In this document: positions 26,876 to 43,558 of the stretch, in pieces
How positions within the stretch are numbered: the stretch's first letter is position 1
How the letters are laid out: each line of letters opens with the position of its first letter
Assembly (NCBI GenBank): GCA_021783135.1
Contig: JAJXUE010000012.1
Coordinates: forward strand, 1-63,198
From: Bacillota bacterium
GTDB lineage: Bacteria; Bacillota; Desulfitobacteriia; Desulfitobacteriales; JAJXUE01
Length of the DNA: 63,198 nt
Direction of reading: 5' to 3'
Program-made: the position numbers and the translations under genes
Notes under the pieces: model-generated
Databases searched by the model: none
What the model was told of the DNA's origin: nothing
What the model saw: the letters and a program-made list of their open reading frames with translations, nothing else

Positions 26876-27481
26876 ATGAAAAATGTACTTAAGTGGAGTG
26901 GTAACTTGGTTACGGTGGGTCTAGCAGTACTCCTGATTCTGACTGTTTACATTGCAGTCACTTCTAGAATGTACGGTATACCGAAAGCATTCGGACTACA
27001 GATGTATGAAGTGCTTTCCGGCTCGATGGAGCCAGGCATCCGTACTGGGTCAGTGATCTTTGACAAACCGGGCGTTAAAGTCAATAGCCTCAAAGTAGGC
27101 GATGTAATCACATTTAAAGCAGCAGATGACCCGAAGATGCTGATTACCCACAGGATAGTAAAGGTTAAGACTCAAGACGGGGCTCCTGCTTTTCAGACAA
27201 AAGGCGACGCCAACGATTCTGCCGACCCAAGTGTAGTTCCTGCCGGTAATGTAGTGGCTCAATACGACAATATCACGATTCCCTATCTTGGTTATTACCT
27301 GAATTTTATGAAATCAAAGGTGGGAATTATTCTGCTTATTATTGTGCCCGGAGCGTTGTTGATTCTCAGCACTATGTTTAGTCTGTTCCGCGAGATTATG
27401 AAGCTAGACACAGCAGATGCAAAGACCGATTTAGCTAATTCGACATCAGAAGCCACCATGAAGAGTGTCACAAAGGTCTAG
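26876..27481 (+). CDS. sipW: Signal peptidase I, SipW type
   Basis: 201-aa membrane protease with two transmembrane helices (about 10-30 and 148-168). The catalytic Ser50 lies in YEVLSGSMEP. The second block has ITHRIVK with His92, in place of the Lys of ordinary bacterial signal peptidases, and an ADDS-type region supplies an Asp, as in the ER-type/SipW family. SipW cleaves TasA-like matrix proteins, and two such substrates are encoded directly downstream, so this is a dedicated processing unit. Confidence 0.9.
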   Translation: MKNVLKWSGNLVTVGLAVLLILTVYIAVTSRMYGIPKAFGLQMYEVLSGSMEPGIRTGSVIFDKPGVKVNSLKVGDVITFKAADDPKMLITHRIVKVKTQDGAPAFQTKGDANDSADPSVVPAGNVVAQYDNITIPYLGYYLNFMKSKVGIILLIIVPGALLILSTMFSLFREIMKLDTADAKTDLANSTSEATMKSVTKV

Positions 27482-27615
27482 AAGGTATTTTGTTGTTCAA
27501 TGGTTTGAACGCTTCTCAGCAGACGAAGAGGAGGAGTAAATCCATTCGTTAAGCGCATGAGAGGTTCAAATAAAAATTACCCCAAAAAGGGGAAGAAAAA
27601 GGGAGAGGTATTAAA

Positions 27616-28137
27616 ATGAGTATCAAGAAAAAACTCGCAATGGCCCTCGTAACTACCACAGCAGGCGCTGCAATCATGGCAGCAGGATCCTTCGCATTGT
27701 TCACTGGCACGGCAACAAACACGGGAAACACCTTTACCGCAGGAACTGTAATAGTTAGTGACATCACAAACGGAACTCTTTCATCTCAAGAAGTTAATGC
27801 CGGCAAAATCGCTCCTGGCGATGGCAAAACACTGACCATGACTGTAAAAAACGATGGTAACTTAAGTGAGTGGGTTAAAATTGACCAGGATGAAACTAAT
27901 GGCACTAAAACAGGTGGCTTATTCGGTGGAAGCACTCCTATGACCTTAACTTTAGACAATAAGGTGGTTGAGCTGGCGCCAGGCGCCGAAACAACGTTCA
28001 ATGTCGACTATAGCCTTCCCCTTGCTGCAGACAATTCTTATCAATCCGCAACTGGAAGCTTTAATGTTAAAGTAGACGCAGTTCAATCTCGTAATAACAG
28101 AAATTCTGCTGGTGACGGCCCTAATGCTTGGCAATAA
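27616..28137 (+). CDS. TasA/camelysin-like secreted protein 1
   Basis: 173 aa with a SipW-type signal peptide (KKLAMALVTTTAGAAIMAAGSFA). The family hallmark follows: LFTGTATNTGNTFTAGTVIVSD, then a Greek-key beta-sandwich with DGKTLTMTVKNDGNLSEWVKI and APGAETTFNVDYSLPL. TasA/CalY proteins assemble into extracellular matrix fibres. GGGAGAGG precedes ATG 27616. Metalloprotease activity once proposed for camelysin is not evident. Probable substrate of the adjacent SipW. Confidence 0.88.
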   Translation: MSIKKKLAMALVTTTAGAAIMAAGSFALFTGTATNTGNTFTAGTVIVSDITNGTLSSQEVNAGKIAPGDGKTLTMTVKNDGNLSEWVKIDQDETNGTKTGGLFGGSTPMTLTLDNKVVELAPGAETTFNVDYSLPLAADNSYQSATGSFNVKVDAVQSRNNRNSAGDGPNAWQ

Positions 28138-28153
28138 TTGATAAACTTTAAGT

Positions 28154-28176
28154 GAGGGTGGAGTAATTCTACCCTC
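28154..28176 (+). terminator. Weak terminator-like hairpin
   Basis: GAGGGT and ACCCTC pair around 11 bases, followed by a T/C stretch. It may reduce read-through from the first TasA-like gene to the second. Confidence 0.4.
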
Positions 28177-28233
28177 TTCTAAAAAGAACTTTTAATTATC
28201 AACATGACATATTTTTTTGGAGGGAAAAATTTG

Positions 28234-28998
28234 ATGAAGAAAAAATTACTTGCGATCATTCCTGCTGGGGTGATGGCAGCTAGCTTACTGATTGGCGGAG
28301 CCACATACGCCTTGTTTACAGATTCAGCGACCAATACGGGTAATACATTTACCGCTGGAACACTCACCATGTCTACGAGTCGGGACGATATCCCTATGGC
28401 AGGACCCATGTTCTATACGAATGATAATACGAATGGTTGGTCCGGAACAGGATTATGGGCGCCAGGTGATAGTCATACCAGAGGTTTATTTGTAAGAAAC
28501 ACCGGTAGTTTAGACGGAAAACTGGCTACAGTTTCTGCAATCGCAGAAGGGTCGGGGACGCAATATAGCTCTTTTGAATCACAAGCCGACGTGACAATTG
28601 CAGTATTTGCGCCTCACGGCAATTTTGACCAAACCGCTTACAGGCAGCTTATGCAGGTAGTTGACAACTGGTATGCAAATGCTCGTAAAAACGCATGGAC
28701 CAATGGAATTGCGAATGTAGATGACTACATTAATCAATCTTACTTACACCAAGTTTTCGATGTTAAAAATGTTTTAGGCGAAGACGTGTCTGCCAGCGTA
28801 ATCGAAGTATATAATGACAAACTCTCTAATCTTATGAGCCCCACAGATGTCAAAACTTTAGGAATAACTGTCCCTAGTCAAGAAACTTTACTGATGGGCT
28901 ATACAGTATCATTGCCATTAACAGCTGGTAATGATCTGCAAAACAAAACTGTTAACTTTACTTTCCAAAATGAATTCCAGCAAGCAAAAAATAATTAA
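28234..28998 (+). CDS. TasA/camelysin-like secreted protein 2
   Basis: 254 aa from ATG 28234 (GGAGGG upstream; ATG 28204 lies before that site). Signal peptide KKKLLAIIPAGVMAASLLIGGATYA, then LFTDSATNTGNTFTAGTLTMS, nearly identical to the first family member at this position. The mature part is larger, with an insert at about 110-190 (helical, WYANARKNAWTNG) before the final beta strands. It could be the major fibre protein or a minor partner, as with TasA and TapA. Confidence 0.85.
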   Translation: MKKKLLAIIPAGVMAASLLIGGATYALFTDSATNTGNTFTAGTLTMSTSRDDIPMAGPMFYTNDNTNGWSGTGLWAPGDSHTRGLFVRNTGSLDGKLATVSAIAEGSGTQYSSFESQADVTIAVFAPHGNFDQTAYRQLMQVVDNWYANARKNAWTNGIANVDDYINQSYLHQVFDVKNVLGEDVSASVIEVYNDKLSNLMSPTDVKTLGITVPSQETLLMGYTVSLPLTAGNDLQNKTVNFTFQNEFQQAKNN

Positions 28999-30887: not shown

Positions 30888-30979
30888 TAATAACCTTGTC
30901 TGTACAAATACTAAGCGATATGATAACTTAATGGTAAATTGGTTATTGTAAATTCGCTATCTGGAAGGAGATGCTTAAC

Positions 30980-31279
30980 ATGATTAACATTACAGAAAGC
31001 GCTGCCGCGCGGGTTCAGGAAATTTTTGTCCAGCAGCAAACAACGGGCTATTTACGCTTGTATGTTACAGGTTTTGGCTGAGGTGGGCCCAGTTTTGGGT
31101 TGACTCTGGACGAGTCAAAAAATGATAATGATTTGTTGAGTGAACAAAATGGCGTTAAAATGGTGGTTGACAATCAATATGCGAGGTATATAGAAGGATC
31201 CGTCATTGATTTTTCCGCCGGGGGATTTGAGATTCGTACTGCGGGCAGTGACAGTTGTGGCAGTTGCAGCTCCTGTTAA
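30980..31279 (+). CDS. HesB/IscA-like selenoprotein (in-frame UGA)
   Basis: 100 codons from ATG 30980 with GGAAGGAG 9 bp upstream. The frame reads MINITESAAARVQEIF, then LRLYVTGFG, TGA (31079-31081, codon 34), then GGPSFGLTLDES, and ends SDSCGSCSSC. In HesB/IscA proteins the residue at this TGA is the first conserved Cys of the GGGCSG motif, so the TGA is best read as selenocysteine. A stem-loop (CCCA-GTTT-TGGG, 31088-31099) just after the UGA fits a bacterial SECIS. HesB-like selenoproteins are a known group. Standard gene finders would truncate this gene at codon 33. Confidence 0.85.
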
Positions 31280-31299: not shown

Positions 31300-31332
31300 A
31301 AGGGAAGCTATCGAAAGATGGCTTCCTTTTTA
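31300..31332. terminator. Terminator between convergent genes
   Basis: AGGGAAGC and GCTTCCTTTTT form the stem, with T residues for the plus-strand selenoprotein gene. The minus-strand gene ending at 31348 may share it. Confidence 0.65.
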
Positions 31333-31347
31333 TTGTGCCGTAAAACT

Positions 31348-32460
31348 TTATGGTGCCGCAAAACCGGCATACCGCACTAGGGCGGCGATGCCCCCAACTT
31401 CTTCTAGTTCAGGTATGGAATCAGCAAAGTGGAATTCTGCACCGGATTTAAGCAGCATATCCAGTATCTCGTTAATTACACTAACCTTAAAAAGCAATGT
31501 CGAGCCACAAGCGGTGCAGGCCCCAACTTCCCCCTTGTTCAAGGTGTGGCAGCTTTGACAACGTTTGATCTGGGGATGGAAGGCACGACTGACAACCATT
31601 TTTTCTACACGCTCCTCCTGCGCAGCCTGAAGCACGTCATCAAGCCCTACAACAGCCAGTCCGCCCCTAAGGTATTCTGCTCGTATGTGCTCCCAGTAAT
31701 CCTGTTGGAAATGGAGCTCTTCATCGCTTAATAAGGTCATAATGTCATGGTTGACCGAGCCTTCCCCTTTACTTAAATCCAAATTTTTTTCAATAAGCTT
31801 ATTTTGCAAATCTTTAGGCATATTTTGATGTACGATATTGAGTATTTCCTTGCTGCCGACAAGCAGTATATGCCTGTATTTATCATCCCTGTCAAGCTTT
31901 AATAGCGCGTCGGTAATTTCACGCGCATAGTGTAACAATTGTTTGTCGCGGCGGCGCTCGTAGCGTTTCTGTGACCAACCGCCAACCTTGACGTGATTTT
32001 TTATGTTGCCTTTGATAACCTCTGCAGTACCAGTCACATTTGCAGAAACAAGGAAAATTCGTACTTTTTCATTATCAGCTACAACCACTGCTACATTTTC
32101 ATAGTCGTCATAAAGTTCTGCAAGGGGACGGATATAGGGGGAGGAATCTATCCTAATGACATCGTTAATTGGTTCAGGTAATGCAATAGCCTGAAAGAAG
32201 TTAATTGCCTGGCACGCCAAAATACAGAGCGAGCCAGTTTGCAATGGGTTTTTTTTGAGATATTCTGCAACTGTTTTGACGTTTGCATCGAAGTGTTCTA
32301 ACTCACCTTTATTAGCTTCAGTGCTTTTTAATACATGACGCAGCTTATCAAACTTTTTTTCTAGCTCAACTGCGGAATGTGGTCCGGACAAAAATATACT
32401 TAAAAAAGTTTGCTCTGGAGCTGTCAATTCTGCCAGCCTTTTTAAATCAAAATTTGACAT
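31348..32460 (-). CDS. Bacterial eRF1-like protein (archaeo-eukaryotic release factor family)
   Basis: 370 aa from ATG 32460 (GGAGG upstream; ATG 32475 overlaps that site). The arrangement resembles bacterial archaeo-eukaryotic release factor homologues: an N-terminal domain, a central Rossmann/RNase H-like domain (ENVAVVVADNEKVRIFLV, then KHVKVGGWSQKRYERRRDKQLLHYAREI, then HILLVGSKEI) and a C-terminal L7Ae-like part containing a zinc ribbon CQSCHTLNKGEVGACTACG. Relatives lie in ribosome rescue or hibernation contexts. The GGQ motif of true release factors is replaced by GGWSQ. Function in this organism is inferred from family. Confidence 0.7.
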   Translation of the reverse strand: MSNFDLKRLAELTAPEQTFLSIFLSGPHSAVELEKKFDKLRHVLKSTEANKGELEHFDANVKTVAEYLKKNPLQTGSLCILACQAINFFQAIALPEPINDVIRIDSSPYIRPLAELYDDYENVAVVVADNEKVRIFLVSANVTGTAEVIKGNIKNHVKVGGWSQKRYERRRDKQLLHYAREITDALLKLDRDDKYRHILLVGSKEILNIVHQNMPKDLQNKLIEKNLDLSKGEGSVNHDIMTLLSDEELHFQQDYWEHIRAEYLRGGLAVVGLDDVLQAAQEERVEKMVVSRAFHPQIKRCQSCHTLNKGEVGACTACGSTLLFKVSVINEILDMLLKSGAEFHFADSIPELEEVGGIAALVRYAGFAAP

Positions 32461-32660
32461 TAGTGTAACCTCCATGTAAAAAAGTTTTTAATCTACAATT
32501 CAATCCTAATACATTTTAATCCTAACACATTTCATTAGTAAAGCGTGGATAAAACAAACAGGCATATCGCAGTCTGTCCTTCAATAGATTATAACAAGGG
32601 TCATTCAGCTTATTTTTGCAAAGTAAATTGTCATATCTGTACCATCTTAGTTGCCCTGGG

Positions 32661-32832: not shown

Positions 32833-35800
32833 ATGAACCGAAAACGCAAGAGCAGAATTGCTGTGTTAGCAATCGTGTGTATTTTCTTGACAATGCTTCC
32901 GGCACAGCTATTTGCCCAAAGTACCCAAGACACCACGGCAGGGTCTCGGCTTGGTGGTATTGACCGCTATGAAACTGCCGCCTTAGTAGCCCAAAATGGT
33001 TGGACCAAATCTGATTATGCGATTCTTTCTGCGGGTATGAACCCAAATCTGGTAGACGCTTTAACTGCAGCTCCGCTAGCTAAAAAGCTCGCTGCGCCGA
33101 TTTTATTAACCCAAGGCGATACTTTAAACAGTTTCGCGGAGGCAGAGTTAACAAGATTAGGCGTGAAAACTGTATATGTAACAAGCGGTATTGGAACTAT
33201 CACTGCGAATGTATTAAGCAGATTGGCTGCATTGGGGATTCAGTATGAAGTATTAGGCGGCGCCAACAGATTTGAGACTTCGGTCAATATTGCTACGAAG
33301 ATGGATACAGCCGATAAAATCGTTGTTGCTACTGCCTATACAAATGCTGATGCGCTTTCCGTATCTGCTATCGCTGCCGCTAAAGGTATGCCGATTTTAC
33401 TTTCGCCCGTTGATGGTTTACCACAAAGTGTGACTGATTACCTGAACAGCATTAAAGCTAAAATTAAAGAATCCTATGTAGTCGGCGGAGTTGGCGTGTT
33501 AAGCAATGCTGTGCAAGCAGCGCTTCCGAATGCCACTCGTGCTTGGGGACCGGACCGGTACGCCACAAACGTGCAAGTTTTGAAAGCTTTTGATTCTGAC
33601 TTGAAATATGATCGTGTCTACGTGGCCAACGGCACAGATAATCATTTAGTTGATGCTCTGGTGGTTTCCTCCTTAGCGGCTAAAACCAATTCCCCAATCG
33701 TCCTGGTGGCGGACACCTTGCCGACAGATACCTCAGCCTACTTGGCAACTAAAGTTAACCAAGAAACTACTGCTGCAGCTCTGGGCGGACCAACAGTTGT
33801 AACTGATGGCATAATGAACCAAGTCAACGCGCTGGTCGCAGCTCTTCCGACCTGGGGAGTCAGCCTTGCCGCTGAAAAAGCGTCCTTAAAGGCAGACGGG
33901 AAAGATAGCACAATTGTTAAGTTCCTGGTTAAAGACTATAAAGGAAACCTCCTCAATAACGTTAAAGGTGAGGTTGAGTTTAGCACAACCTTTGGCAATG
34001 TGGCTAAACAACGCGTAGCCCTCCAAAATGGTGTTGCGTCAGTCATGCTAACTTCCGAGTATCTGCCTACACCTGCGGTTGCCAATGTTACAGGTAAGAT
34101 TGTCGACTCTGATATCCAAGCCAATATAGGTCTGACTGCTACCACAAGCGTAGCTATGGGTATGGATTTTACGCCTGTAACCAAACCTGTCTTGTCTGCG
34201 GCAGAAAGCAATCAGGCTGATCGACTGACAGCCTATTTCAATCAACCGGTAGATATCAAGTACTTCCTGGATGCTAATGGCGGCTTTAATTCCGGGATTA
34301 AATTTGAGGTATTTACCCAAGCCTTAGGCAAGTGTTATCCGGTTGATGTGGTTGGTGCTATGCCTGTAACCGGAGAAAGTCGTGCGCTAACCCTAATATT
34401 GCGCACTCCCTTAATCGATAACGATAATGTGTCGGTTAAACTCACTGATAGCACCGGTGATGGAGTGCTAGCCAGTAAAGCACCGCTATTTACCTTGACG
34501 GATGCTCGTCCGCCGGCCATGATTGATGCCCAAGCCGGTACTGACATGCGAACGGTCAACATCTATTTTTCTGAAGCCGTTGACCCCCTAAGCGCAAGAA
34601 CCTTCAAAAATTGGAGCATTGATGGTGTAAAACTTGACCCCAGTAAGTACAGCATTTCAGTTGGCGGTTTTACTCCCAGTGCCACCGGTGGAGTTGACCA
34701 GCGTAATGTAGTTACGCTACAGAAGAAGATCACCGGTGAAGTCTATGAAGATCCTTTCTGGAAGGGTGCCTGGTTCAACGCCGGCAAGCACTCGGTTCAG
34801 GGCAGTCAAGTAGGTGATTGGGCTTATCAGACCGATCCTCACAATATTGCTGCTACACAAATTTTTGACTTCACGGTCAAAGCTGATCCCACCATACCTG
34901 TAGCAACGATTAGTGAACAATCGCCGGAACAGTGGCTGGTTCAATTTAATGTTCCGGTATTGCAAGATGCGGCTATGGCAGCCAATGCATTTAAACTGCA
35001 AGTGCTGGATGCTGCAACTAATCACTGGCAGGATGTAAACGCTGAATTTACGGCTGATAAGACCAATCTCGCTGGGTTTAAAGTGCTGGTCACAGAAATG
35101 GATAACAACAAGTTCCTGCTGGAATTAACTCAGGACTGGACCACTTATTATGATGCCTTAGGCCAAAACACCAAGGATTATTACAGCAATAAGTACCGCG
35201 TGATAGTGAATGACCATGCCTTCCGCAATCCGGCCAACGGCCTGGTGAGCGATGCGCAAGCCCTCGGCTTGGAAGATGCTGTCATGCAGTCCATTGACGT
35301 AACATCTCCCACCATTGCCTCAATTGAAGAAGTTACCCCTGGGTATCTGTACACGGTAGTAATGTCTGAGCCTGTTAAGCTACGTACAGCTGACAACGAG
35401 CAAGGCTTCAATGATGAAGGGCTTACCCCTGGTAGGCAGCAAGATGATGGCTTGCCCGTGAGTATGGCGCAGTTTGTTAACGGTACAACGACAATCGCTG
35501 CTACAATGTCTATGGCTAATTCCGGGACCTATGATAACGCGATTATCGTTAAGCCGGCAGAGCCTCTCGGCGATGGTACCTGGAAGCTTGTGGTCAAGGC
35601 AGTTTCGGACGATGTAGGCAACACCTCTGCGACTGTTACTAAGGATTTCACAGTAAGCATACCTAAAGAGTTCAAGGTTGCCTTCGCCTTTGCCAGCATC
35701 GACAGAGGCCTCAAAGTGCAAAGTCTTGATTTGTGGGATGGGGATCTTCAAAATGACTATATCTACGTCAAATTTACCAGACCGATTGCGATCACAGGCG

Positions 35801-36117
35801 GCGAGGCTAACGTGCTGAATACTGCTAACTACACCTTAAACGGTGTTGCTCTGCCAGACGGCTCGGAAATATTCGCCGATATTCAACGCTATGACAACAA
35901 CGACGATGTAGTGGATTCCATTACTATTCGTATCCCACAAGGAGCTAACGCTTTGTTGAAAACCATCACTGGCGCAGAGTTTAACTCACCTAACGTATTA
36001 AAACTGGCACCTTCCTTGACTGCAAGTGATGGCCAGCAAATTAGCGGCAGCTTAGAACTTAGATTACCTTACAACATTAAAAACGGTACCAGATTGGGAG
36101 TAAACACAAACTCTTAA
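32833..36117 (+). CDS. Surface protein with three cell-wall-binding (CWB2) repeats
   Basis: 1094 aa with a signal peptide (KSRIAVLAIVCIFLTMLPAQLFA). Three tandem CWB2 repeats occupy about residues 35-330, each opening with an R-x-x-x-A motif (GGIDRYETAALVA, GGANRFETSVNIA, GPDRYATNVQVL) and containing a V-V-G-G or similar turn. These bind anionic wall polymers and anchor S-layer-like proteins non-covalently. The remaining 750 residues look like several beta-sandwich (bacterial Ig/invasin-like) domains (DYKGNLLNNVKGEVEFSTT; PPAMIDAQAGTDMRTVNIYFSEAV). Preceded by a structured leader, so expression may be switched. Confidence 0.88.
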   Translation: MNRKRKSRIAVLAIVCIFLTMLPAQLFAQSTQDTTAGSRLGGIDRYETAALVAQNGWTKSDYAILSAGMNPNLVDALTAAPLAKKLAAPILLTQGDTLNSFAEAELTRLGVKTVYVTSGIGTITANVLSRLAALGIQYEVLGGANRFETSVNIATKMDTADKIVVATAYTNADALSVSAIAAAKGMPILLSPVDGLPQSVTDYLNSIKAKIKESYVVGGVGVLSNAVQAALPNATRAWGPDRYATNVQVLKAFDSDLKYDRVYVANGTDNHLVDALVVSSLAAKTNSPIVLVADTLPTDTSAYLATKVNQETTAAALGGPTVVTDGIMNQVNALVAALPTWGVSLAAEKASLKADGKDSTIVKFLVKDYKGNLLNNVKGEVEFSTTFGNVAKQRVALQNGVASVMLTSEYLPTPAVANVTGKIVDSDIQANIGLTATTSVAMGMDFTPVTKPVLSAAESNQADRLTAYFNQPVDIKYFLDANGGFNSGIKFEVFTQALGKCYPVDVVGAMPVTGESRALTLILRTPLIDNDNVSVKLTDSTGDGVLASKAPLFTLTDARPPAMIDAQAGTDMRTVNIYFSEAVDPLSARTFKNWSIDGVKLDPSKYSISVGGFTPSATGGVDQRNVVTLQKKITGEVYEDPFWKGAWFNAGKHSVQGSQVGDWAYQTDPHNIAATQIFDFTVKADPTIPVATISEQSPEQWLVQFNVPVLQDAAMAANAFKLQVLDAATNHWQDVNAEFTADKTNLAGFKVLVTEMDNNKFLLELTQDWTTYYDALGQNTKDYYSNKYRVIVNDHAFRNPANGLVSDAQALGLEDAVMQSIDVTSPTIASIEEVTPGYLYTVVMSEPVKLRTADNEQGFNDEGLTPGRQQDDGLPVSMAQFVNGTTTIAATMSMANSGTYDNAIIVKPAEPLGDGTWKLVVKAVSDDVGNTSATVTKDFTVSIPKEFKVAFAFASIDRGLKVQSLDLWDGDLQNDYIYVKFTRPIAITGGEANVLNTANYTLNGVALPDGSEIFADIQRYDNNDDVVDSITIRIPQGANALLKTITGAEFNSPNVLKLAPSLTASDGQQISGSLELRLPYNIKNGTRLGVNTNS

Positions 36118-42204: not shown

Positions 42205-42373
42205 GTCGTGTTGAGAGGACAAATATCAAACCGTGGAGGCTAAAGTGCAATAATTAGTAGCCTTAGCGTTATTATTCTGGGAAAAAGTAGAAAATGACTT
42301 ACCCATGCTGGGAGGAATTTAAGCCGTAATAGTTTAACTAATGCTTTGCTGATTTTTTGCGGAGGTGATAAAA

Positions 42374-42718
42374 GTGCTCAGCAAATTCCATGTTTCGCGT
42401 GGGTATAGTTTGCTTGAAGTACTTGCCGTTTTAGTCATCATTGCGATAGCAATGGCGATAGCGGTGCCAAATTACCGAGCTCAGATGACACACTTCAACA
42501 TGCAAGCAGATCAAGCCAATATTGAACTGATTGAAGGCGCGGTTCAACAATACCGTTTGGATACGGGGGGTGTGCCGTGTGATCTTACTTACCTGTTGCG
42601 CGAACCGATTGGCGGGATTCAGGGTTGGGATGGGCCTTATCTTGTGCGTCTGCCGGTAAGCCCGGACGGTACGAATTATGCGCTTGATCAAACTACAGGC
42701 AAGGTGATTTGCCAATGA
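42374..42718 (+). CDS. Type II/IV prepilin-like protein (GspG-like)
   Basis: 114 aa from GTG 42374 (GGAGGTG at 42361-42367). RGYSLLEVLAVLVIIAIAMAIAVPNYRAQM is a prepilin N-terminus with Gly at -1 and Glu5. The tail DTGGVPCDLTYLLREPIGGIQGWDGPYLVRLPVSPDGTNYALD carries the GspG-type motif (G-W-x-G-P-Y-x-x), seen in major pseudopilins. First gene of the minor pilin cluster. Confidence 0.85.
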   Translation: MLSKFHVSRGYSLLEVLAVLVIIAIAMAIAVPNYRAQMTHFNMQADQANIELIEGAVQQYRLDTGGVPCDLTYLLREPIGGIQGWDGPYLVRLPVSPDGTNYALDQTTGKVICQ

Positions 42719-43092
42719 AGTCGGAAGGAGGGTTCGTGTTGTTGGATGTGATTATTGGAGTGTTGATTTTGTGTTTGGGGGTGGCGGTGTTGGGTGAAAT
42801 GAGTCTTGCTGCTCAGCGGGCCACGCTGCTAAGCCGGTATAAGTCGCAAGCGGCCAATCTCGCTAAATCAGAACTTGAGGACCTCAAGGCCTTAGGTATG
42901 GCGACAGCTCTGCAGACCGGTCGGGTGGAGCCGGGACAGACTGTGTGCCGTGTGAGCCGGCAAGATCTGCAGTTGACCGTATCCGGCACTCAATTAAGCG
43001 GCAACTTATTGCAGGTTGAGGTTGATGCTGAATGGTGGGTTGCCTCCGAGCACGGTAATGTCAGTCTTTGCACCTTACTCTCGGCTAACTAG
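42715..43092 (+). CDS. Minor prepilin-like protein (PilV/GspI type)
   Basis: 125 aa, ATG 42715 overlapping the previous stop (ATGA). The N-terminus EGGFVLLDVIIGVLILCLGVAVLGEMSLAAQRA carries a processing site, with Asp in place of the usual Glu5 (GFVLLD), unusual but known in minor pilins. A helical stretch then a small beta domain with two Cys residues follow. Confidence 0.75.
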   Translation: MKSEGGFVLLDVIIGVLILCLGVAVLGEMSLAAQRATLLSRYKSQAANLAKSELEDLKALGMATALQTGRVEPGQTVCRVSRQDLQLTVSGTQLSGNLLQVEVDAEWWVASEHGNVSLCTLLSAN

Positions 43093-43093
43093 C

Positions 43094-43558
43094 ATGGTGC
43101 GGCGTGAAGGTGGGTTTAGCTTGGTCGAGGTGCTGGCTGCTATAGCCATTTTCGGCTTGGTGCTTAATTTGGCAGCACAAACCATGCTTTGGCACGAACG
43201 TACAGCAGTGCGAGAGTATCAGCAACTGGAAACGCAGCAAGCCCTGCGCGTAGCGGCAATGCTGCTGGAGCGCGAGGTGCGTCTGGCCAAAGCTGTGGCT
43301 ATCGATACTTCTGGGGTACTTACGGTTACCACGCCGAATAACAAGCAGGTAAAATACTATGTAGCGGATAAAGATTATAATGGCATTAAAGATTTGTACG
43401 CCGAGACTAATGGCATTCCCAGCCCAGTTGCCAGCTACATAGATACGGCACAATTTATCGCTTTGCGGCAAAATGTATGGCAAATTAACCTCAAAGCTAC
43501 TGATGGCGAGGTGAGCGATGCATGGAAGTTGATAGTCCAAACAAGGGTCGATCCCTAA
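43094..43558 (+). CDS. Minor prepilin-like protein (PilW/GspJ type)
   Basis: 154 aa from ATG 43094, 1 bp after the preceding stop. EGGFSLVEVLAAIAIFGLVLNLAAQTML is a canonical prepilin N-terminus. The LEREVRLAKAVAID and later beta-strand pattern resemble GspJ/PilW minor pilins. Member of the four-gene minor pilin operon. Confidence 0.8.
   Translation: MVRREGGFSLVEVLAAIAIFGLVLNLAAQTMLWHERTAVREYQQLETQQALRVAAMLLEREVRLAKAVAIDTSGVLTVTTPNNKQVKYYVADKDYNGIKDLYAETNGIPSPVASYIDTAQFIALRQNVWQINLKATDGEVSDAWKLIVQTRVDP

Follow-up and report, generated by a model that had tools for sequence, protein, structure and literature searches.

A HesB-like selenoprotein gene with UGA predicted to encode selenocysteine at the first conserved cysteine in a Bacillota bacterium

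The window analysed here is a stretch of 63,198 nucleotides from a host that appears to be a Bacillota bacterium related to Desulfosporosinus. At positions 30980-31279 of its forward strand lies a hesB-like gene, assigned from profile, homologue and model evidence, whose frame runs from an ATG at 30980 to a TAA at 31277-31279 and is interrupted only by a TGA at 31079-31081. The gene comprises 33 codons, the TGA as codon 34 and a further 65 sense codons, and with the TGA read as U its product is a protein of 99 residues (MINITESAAARVQEIFVQQQTTGYLRLYVTGFGUGGPSFGLTLDESKNDNDLLSEQNGVKMVVDNQYARYIEGSVIDFSAGGFEIRTAGSDSCGSCSSC) that carries a UGGP motif and ends in a cysteine tail, CGSCSSC (Cys93, Cys96 and Cys99; 31256-31276). 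Both the 65 open codons beyond the UGA and this C-terminus had been described in an earlier note on this DNA and were confirmed in the sequence. A Shine-Dalgarno-like GGAAGGAG (30963-30970) is located 9 nt 5′ of the ATG, and a computed intrinsic terminator-like hairpin (-19.1 kcal/mol) follows on the same strand at 31300-31329, which together suggest that the gene is a single-gene unit.

Among the neighbours of this copy we found no Fe-S genes and no genes of sulphur or thiol type. Facing the recoded gene tail to tail, and ending 69 nt downstream of it on the opposite strand, is a gene for a baeRF_family10 protein (31348-32475, minus strand), of the bacterial archaeo-eukaryotic release factor type; no other copy was found in the genome. 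Its consideration as a partner in UGA recoding led to the view that the proximity is likely incidental, since it does not stand beside the selenoprotein gene in any of the fetched relatives (flanks of about 1.5-4 kb). Other loci in the window include a SipW-like signal peptidase with two camelysin/TasA-like proteins after it (26876-28998), possibly a biofilm-fibre operon; a surface protein of 1094 aa with CWB2 cell-wall binding repeats (32833-36117); and, at 42365-43558, overlapping ORFs whose N-termini resemble those of prepilins (GYSLLEVLAVLV and GGFSLVEVLAAI, for example). We dismissed another TGA accompanied by a hairpin, at 42685, as it lies within these ordinary pilin-like ORFs, in another frame.

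Membership of the HesB/IscA-like family, as the earlier note had proposed, was borne out by matches above the cut-off to the Pfam profile PF01521 (45.9 bits against 26.3) and to TIGR00049 of NCBIfam (62.2 against 58.8), and by a structural model. The AlphaFold model, built from 22 aligned sequences, had a pLDDT of 81, with residues 91-99 below 50 and the C-terminal cysteine tail disordered; searched with Foldseek, it matched E. coli IscA (1r94; E 8e-8, TM 0.80) and also SufA, and as modelled the protein takes the IscA fold. Scores fell short of the equivalog cut-offs for the A-type carriers ErpA (62.6 of 117), IscA (45.4 of 150.6) and SufA (50.6 of 136.2). Furthermore, the canonical C-terminal CxC ligand pair of these carriers is absent, and the protein should therefore not be called IscA or ErpA. 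In alignments with HI1723 and AQ_1857, U34 occupies the position of the first conserved cysteine of the family, and the UGGP at residues 34-37 fits UxGP, the motif tabulated for HesB-like selenoproteins (PMC13188914). The selenoprotein-specific models NF038090 (63.9 of 85) and TIGR01911 (35.1 of 66.35) appeared among the hits, both with scores below their curated cut-offs, as was also the case for a UGA-bearing Desulfosporosinus homologue. We consequently file the protein as a HesB-like selenoprotein on its UxGP motif, Sec position and SECIS, outside the NF038090 and TIGR01911 subfamilies.

A hairpin had been noted after the UGA, and prediction places it on the forward strand at 31100-31118, 25 nt downstream of the UGA, with a 7-bp stem (UUGACUC/GAGUCAA) and the loop UGGAC. 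Its geometry and energy (5-nt loop beginning UG, 7 bp, 25-nt spacing, -8.1 kcal/mol) lie within the published constraints on bacterial SECIS elements, namely a loop of 3-9 nt, a stem of 4-16 bp, a G in the first two loop bases, a spacing of 16-37 nt and an MFE of at most -7.5 (PMC13188914). When the same peptide was recoded with synonymous codons, a 7-bp stem at the observed geometry arose in 0.46% of 20,000 trials, and 0.7% of 5,000 reached the observed energy or a lower one; under a looser criterion (any loop from 3 to 14 nt, at whatever allowed place) some 7-bp stem was found in 19% of recodings, so that the hairpin alone is not decisive. Its conservation was more telling: a stem of at least 4 bp was kept in 22 of 22 distinct TGA forms, all of them with a UGGAN loop, compared to 6 of 17 Cys forms (Fisher p = 7e-6, a value that ignores shared ancestry), and in the Pseudodesulfovibrio copy (L080) both sides of the stem have changed, turning an A-U pair into G-C. 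The six Cys forms that still hold the hairpin (L014, L017, L024, L025, L032 and L050) are compatible with recent Sec-to-Cys replacement. An Rfam search of the region gave no match to a SECIS family. The lowest-energy fold of a slightly longer RNA (31073-31130) prefers pairing with bases before the UGA; among the Sec forms it is the downstream hairpin that is conserved, and this alternative fold was accordingly discounted.

We surveyed the window's own genome together with 60 genomes of its order, and 49 of the 61 contained a homologue, many of them with one in-frame TGA. At the column of codon 34, 46 of 68 homologues have TGA and the remaining 22 have Cys; aligned homologues of the UGGP type likewise carry TGA at codon 34 or its equivalent, with Cys there in the Cys forms. 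This alignment of TGA with Cys agrees with the earlier note, which had read the UGA at 31079-31081 as standing in place of the first HesB/IscA cysteine. The nearest relatives share approximately 53-59% identity over the whole length, including the part downstream of the TGA. In a tree of the 68 rows, Sec and Cys interchange at least six times as drawn, with the starred branches alone forcing three changes; the shortness of the protein keeps its support modest. In this tree the window gene clusters with three Sec forms, all from a single related genus (support 93/80). The same genome holds a second HesB-type UGA gene, on contig C42 (L048:3708-3998), which has its TGA at the same codon, carries a SECIS-like hairpin of its own and pairs (99/86) with a UGA form from the family's other genus. 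This copy adjoins a methyltransferase gene, with CcdA/DsbD-like and ResA-like genes downstream; a homologue among the closest relatives (L010) adjoins a cysteine desulfurase family protein (TIGR01977), and that of Clostridium drakei adjoins thioredoxin, SufC-like and SufB/D-like genes. The gene context of the relatives thus leans towards sulphur, Fe-S or thiol chemistry.

A selenoprotein in this organism implied selA, selB, selC and selD, and a genome search recovered all of them. Matches above the cut-offs were found for selA (C35:10108-11466, 591 bits), selB (C9:97309-99183, 382 bits) and two copies of selD (C35:14381-15307 and C10:5189-6106; 398 and 359 bits), and directly after selB lies selC, the tRNA-Sec with anticodon TCA (L047:6779-6877). 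Each selD match has one in-frame TGA; the SelD on C35 reads AGUGCK at its own, and this UGCK serves as an internal control for UGA recoding in the host genome.

Three other explanations of the TGA were weighed against decoding as selenocysteine. The TGA could be a genuine stop codon or the result of a nonsense mutation, leaving a pseudogene or a 33-residue peptide, and TGA is indeed used as an ordinary stop in the window, where 11 of the 51 ORFs with 150 aa or more (some of them perhaps spurious) end in it. Against this stand the conservation of the protein beyond the TGA with no other break in the frame, the presence of TGA at this very codon in the paralogue as well as in dozens of relatives, and a hairpin kept in all TGA forms and lost in most Cys forms, and we consider a genuine stop very improbable. 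An error that turned TGT or TGC into TGA is the least probable of the three: the sequence does come from a single assembly, in 67 contigs, but the SECIS-like hairpin sits beside the TGA, and an error is not credible when the codon recurs in so many independently sequenced genomes and at a second locus of the host genome.

Readthrough of any kind would explain the open frame equally well, and a changed code or natural readthrough might place Trp, Gly or Cys at the UGA, without selenocysteine. Other genes end in TGA, however, which makes a changed genetic code unlikely; the position is Cys in homologues, and tRNA-Sec(TCA), SelA, SelB and SelD are all present. We consider this explanation as improbable as a real stop. 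We therefore hold with high confidence that the gene at 30980-31279 is functional and encodes a HesB-like selenoprotein of the IscA/HesB superfamily in which UGA codon 34 is decoded as Sec.

Comparison across homologues strongly supports a model in which the SECIS at 31100-31118 would direct SelB and tRNA-Sec to insert selenocysteine at this codon. Sec34 would replace the first metal- or cluster-binding cysteine of IscA, and its probable part in the handling of Fe-S, metal or sulphur/selenium is that of a ligand or of a redox nucleophile, perhaps with the cysteines of the flexible C-terminal tail acting together with it. The selenium-thiol centre that the earlier note had suggested for this C-terminus is a putative one. 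We favour a putative role as an Fe-S/metal or thiol-redox carrier with Sec34 as key ligand. In the genome, which is about 97% complete, two HesB-domain proteins were found and no others, both of them UGA forms, so that whatever A-type carrier function there may be would rely on selenocysteine; that such a function exists and that Sec34 and the tail cysteines could ligate an Fe-S cluster or a metal via selenium is a speculative proposal that we consider rather unlikely. Were Sec a cluster ligand, the protein would count as an unusual case of an Fe-S carrier ligated through selenium. The gene itself is an ordinary, well-supported further example of an already known kind of selenoprotein, recoded in a way that standard gene callers truncate or miss, and it adds to the HesB-like selenoproteins a clear instance in which paralogues occur and Cys and Sec alternate within a single order.

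HesB-like selenoproteins have been known for some twenty years. The window protein shares with those described by TIGR01911 (HesB_rel_seleno) and NF038090 (IscA_HesB_Se) the IscA/HesB fold, a length of about 100 aa, Sec at the first conserved cysteine, the UGGP motif and a SECIS directly after the UGA, whereas it scores under both cut-offs and has the Cys-rich tail CGSCSSC, which is unlike that type and common to Desulfosporosinus-type homologues. Compared to the A-type Fe-S carriers IscA, SufA and ErpA of E. coli (1r94, 2d2a), it has the same fold and first ligand position (Cys35 of IscA), but with Sec for Cys and CGSC..C for the C-terminal CGC. In Methanococcus maripaludis, the HesB-like selenoprotein MMJJ_08070 was identified by mutagenesis and 75Se labelling, work cited in PMC11097638, which calls its function not clear; both proteins are HesB-like, and the archaeal one has selenium demonstrated by labelling and a SECIS of archaeal type. 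Desulfitobacterium hafniense has a Cys-form HesB-like protein with a SECIS-like remnant, reported as a recent Sec-to-Cys replacement (PMC1794560); it belongs to the same family, in which the window copy keeps the UGA.
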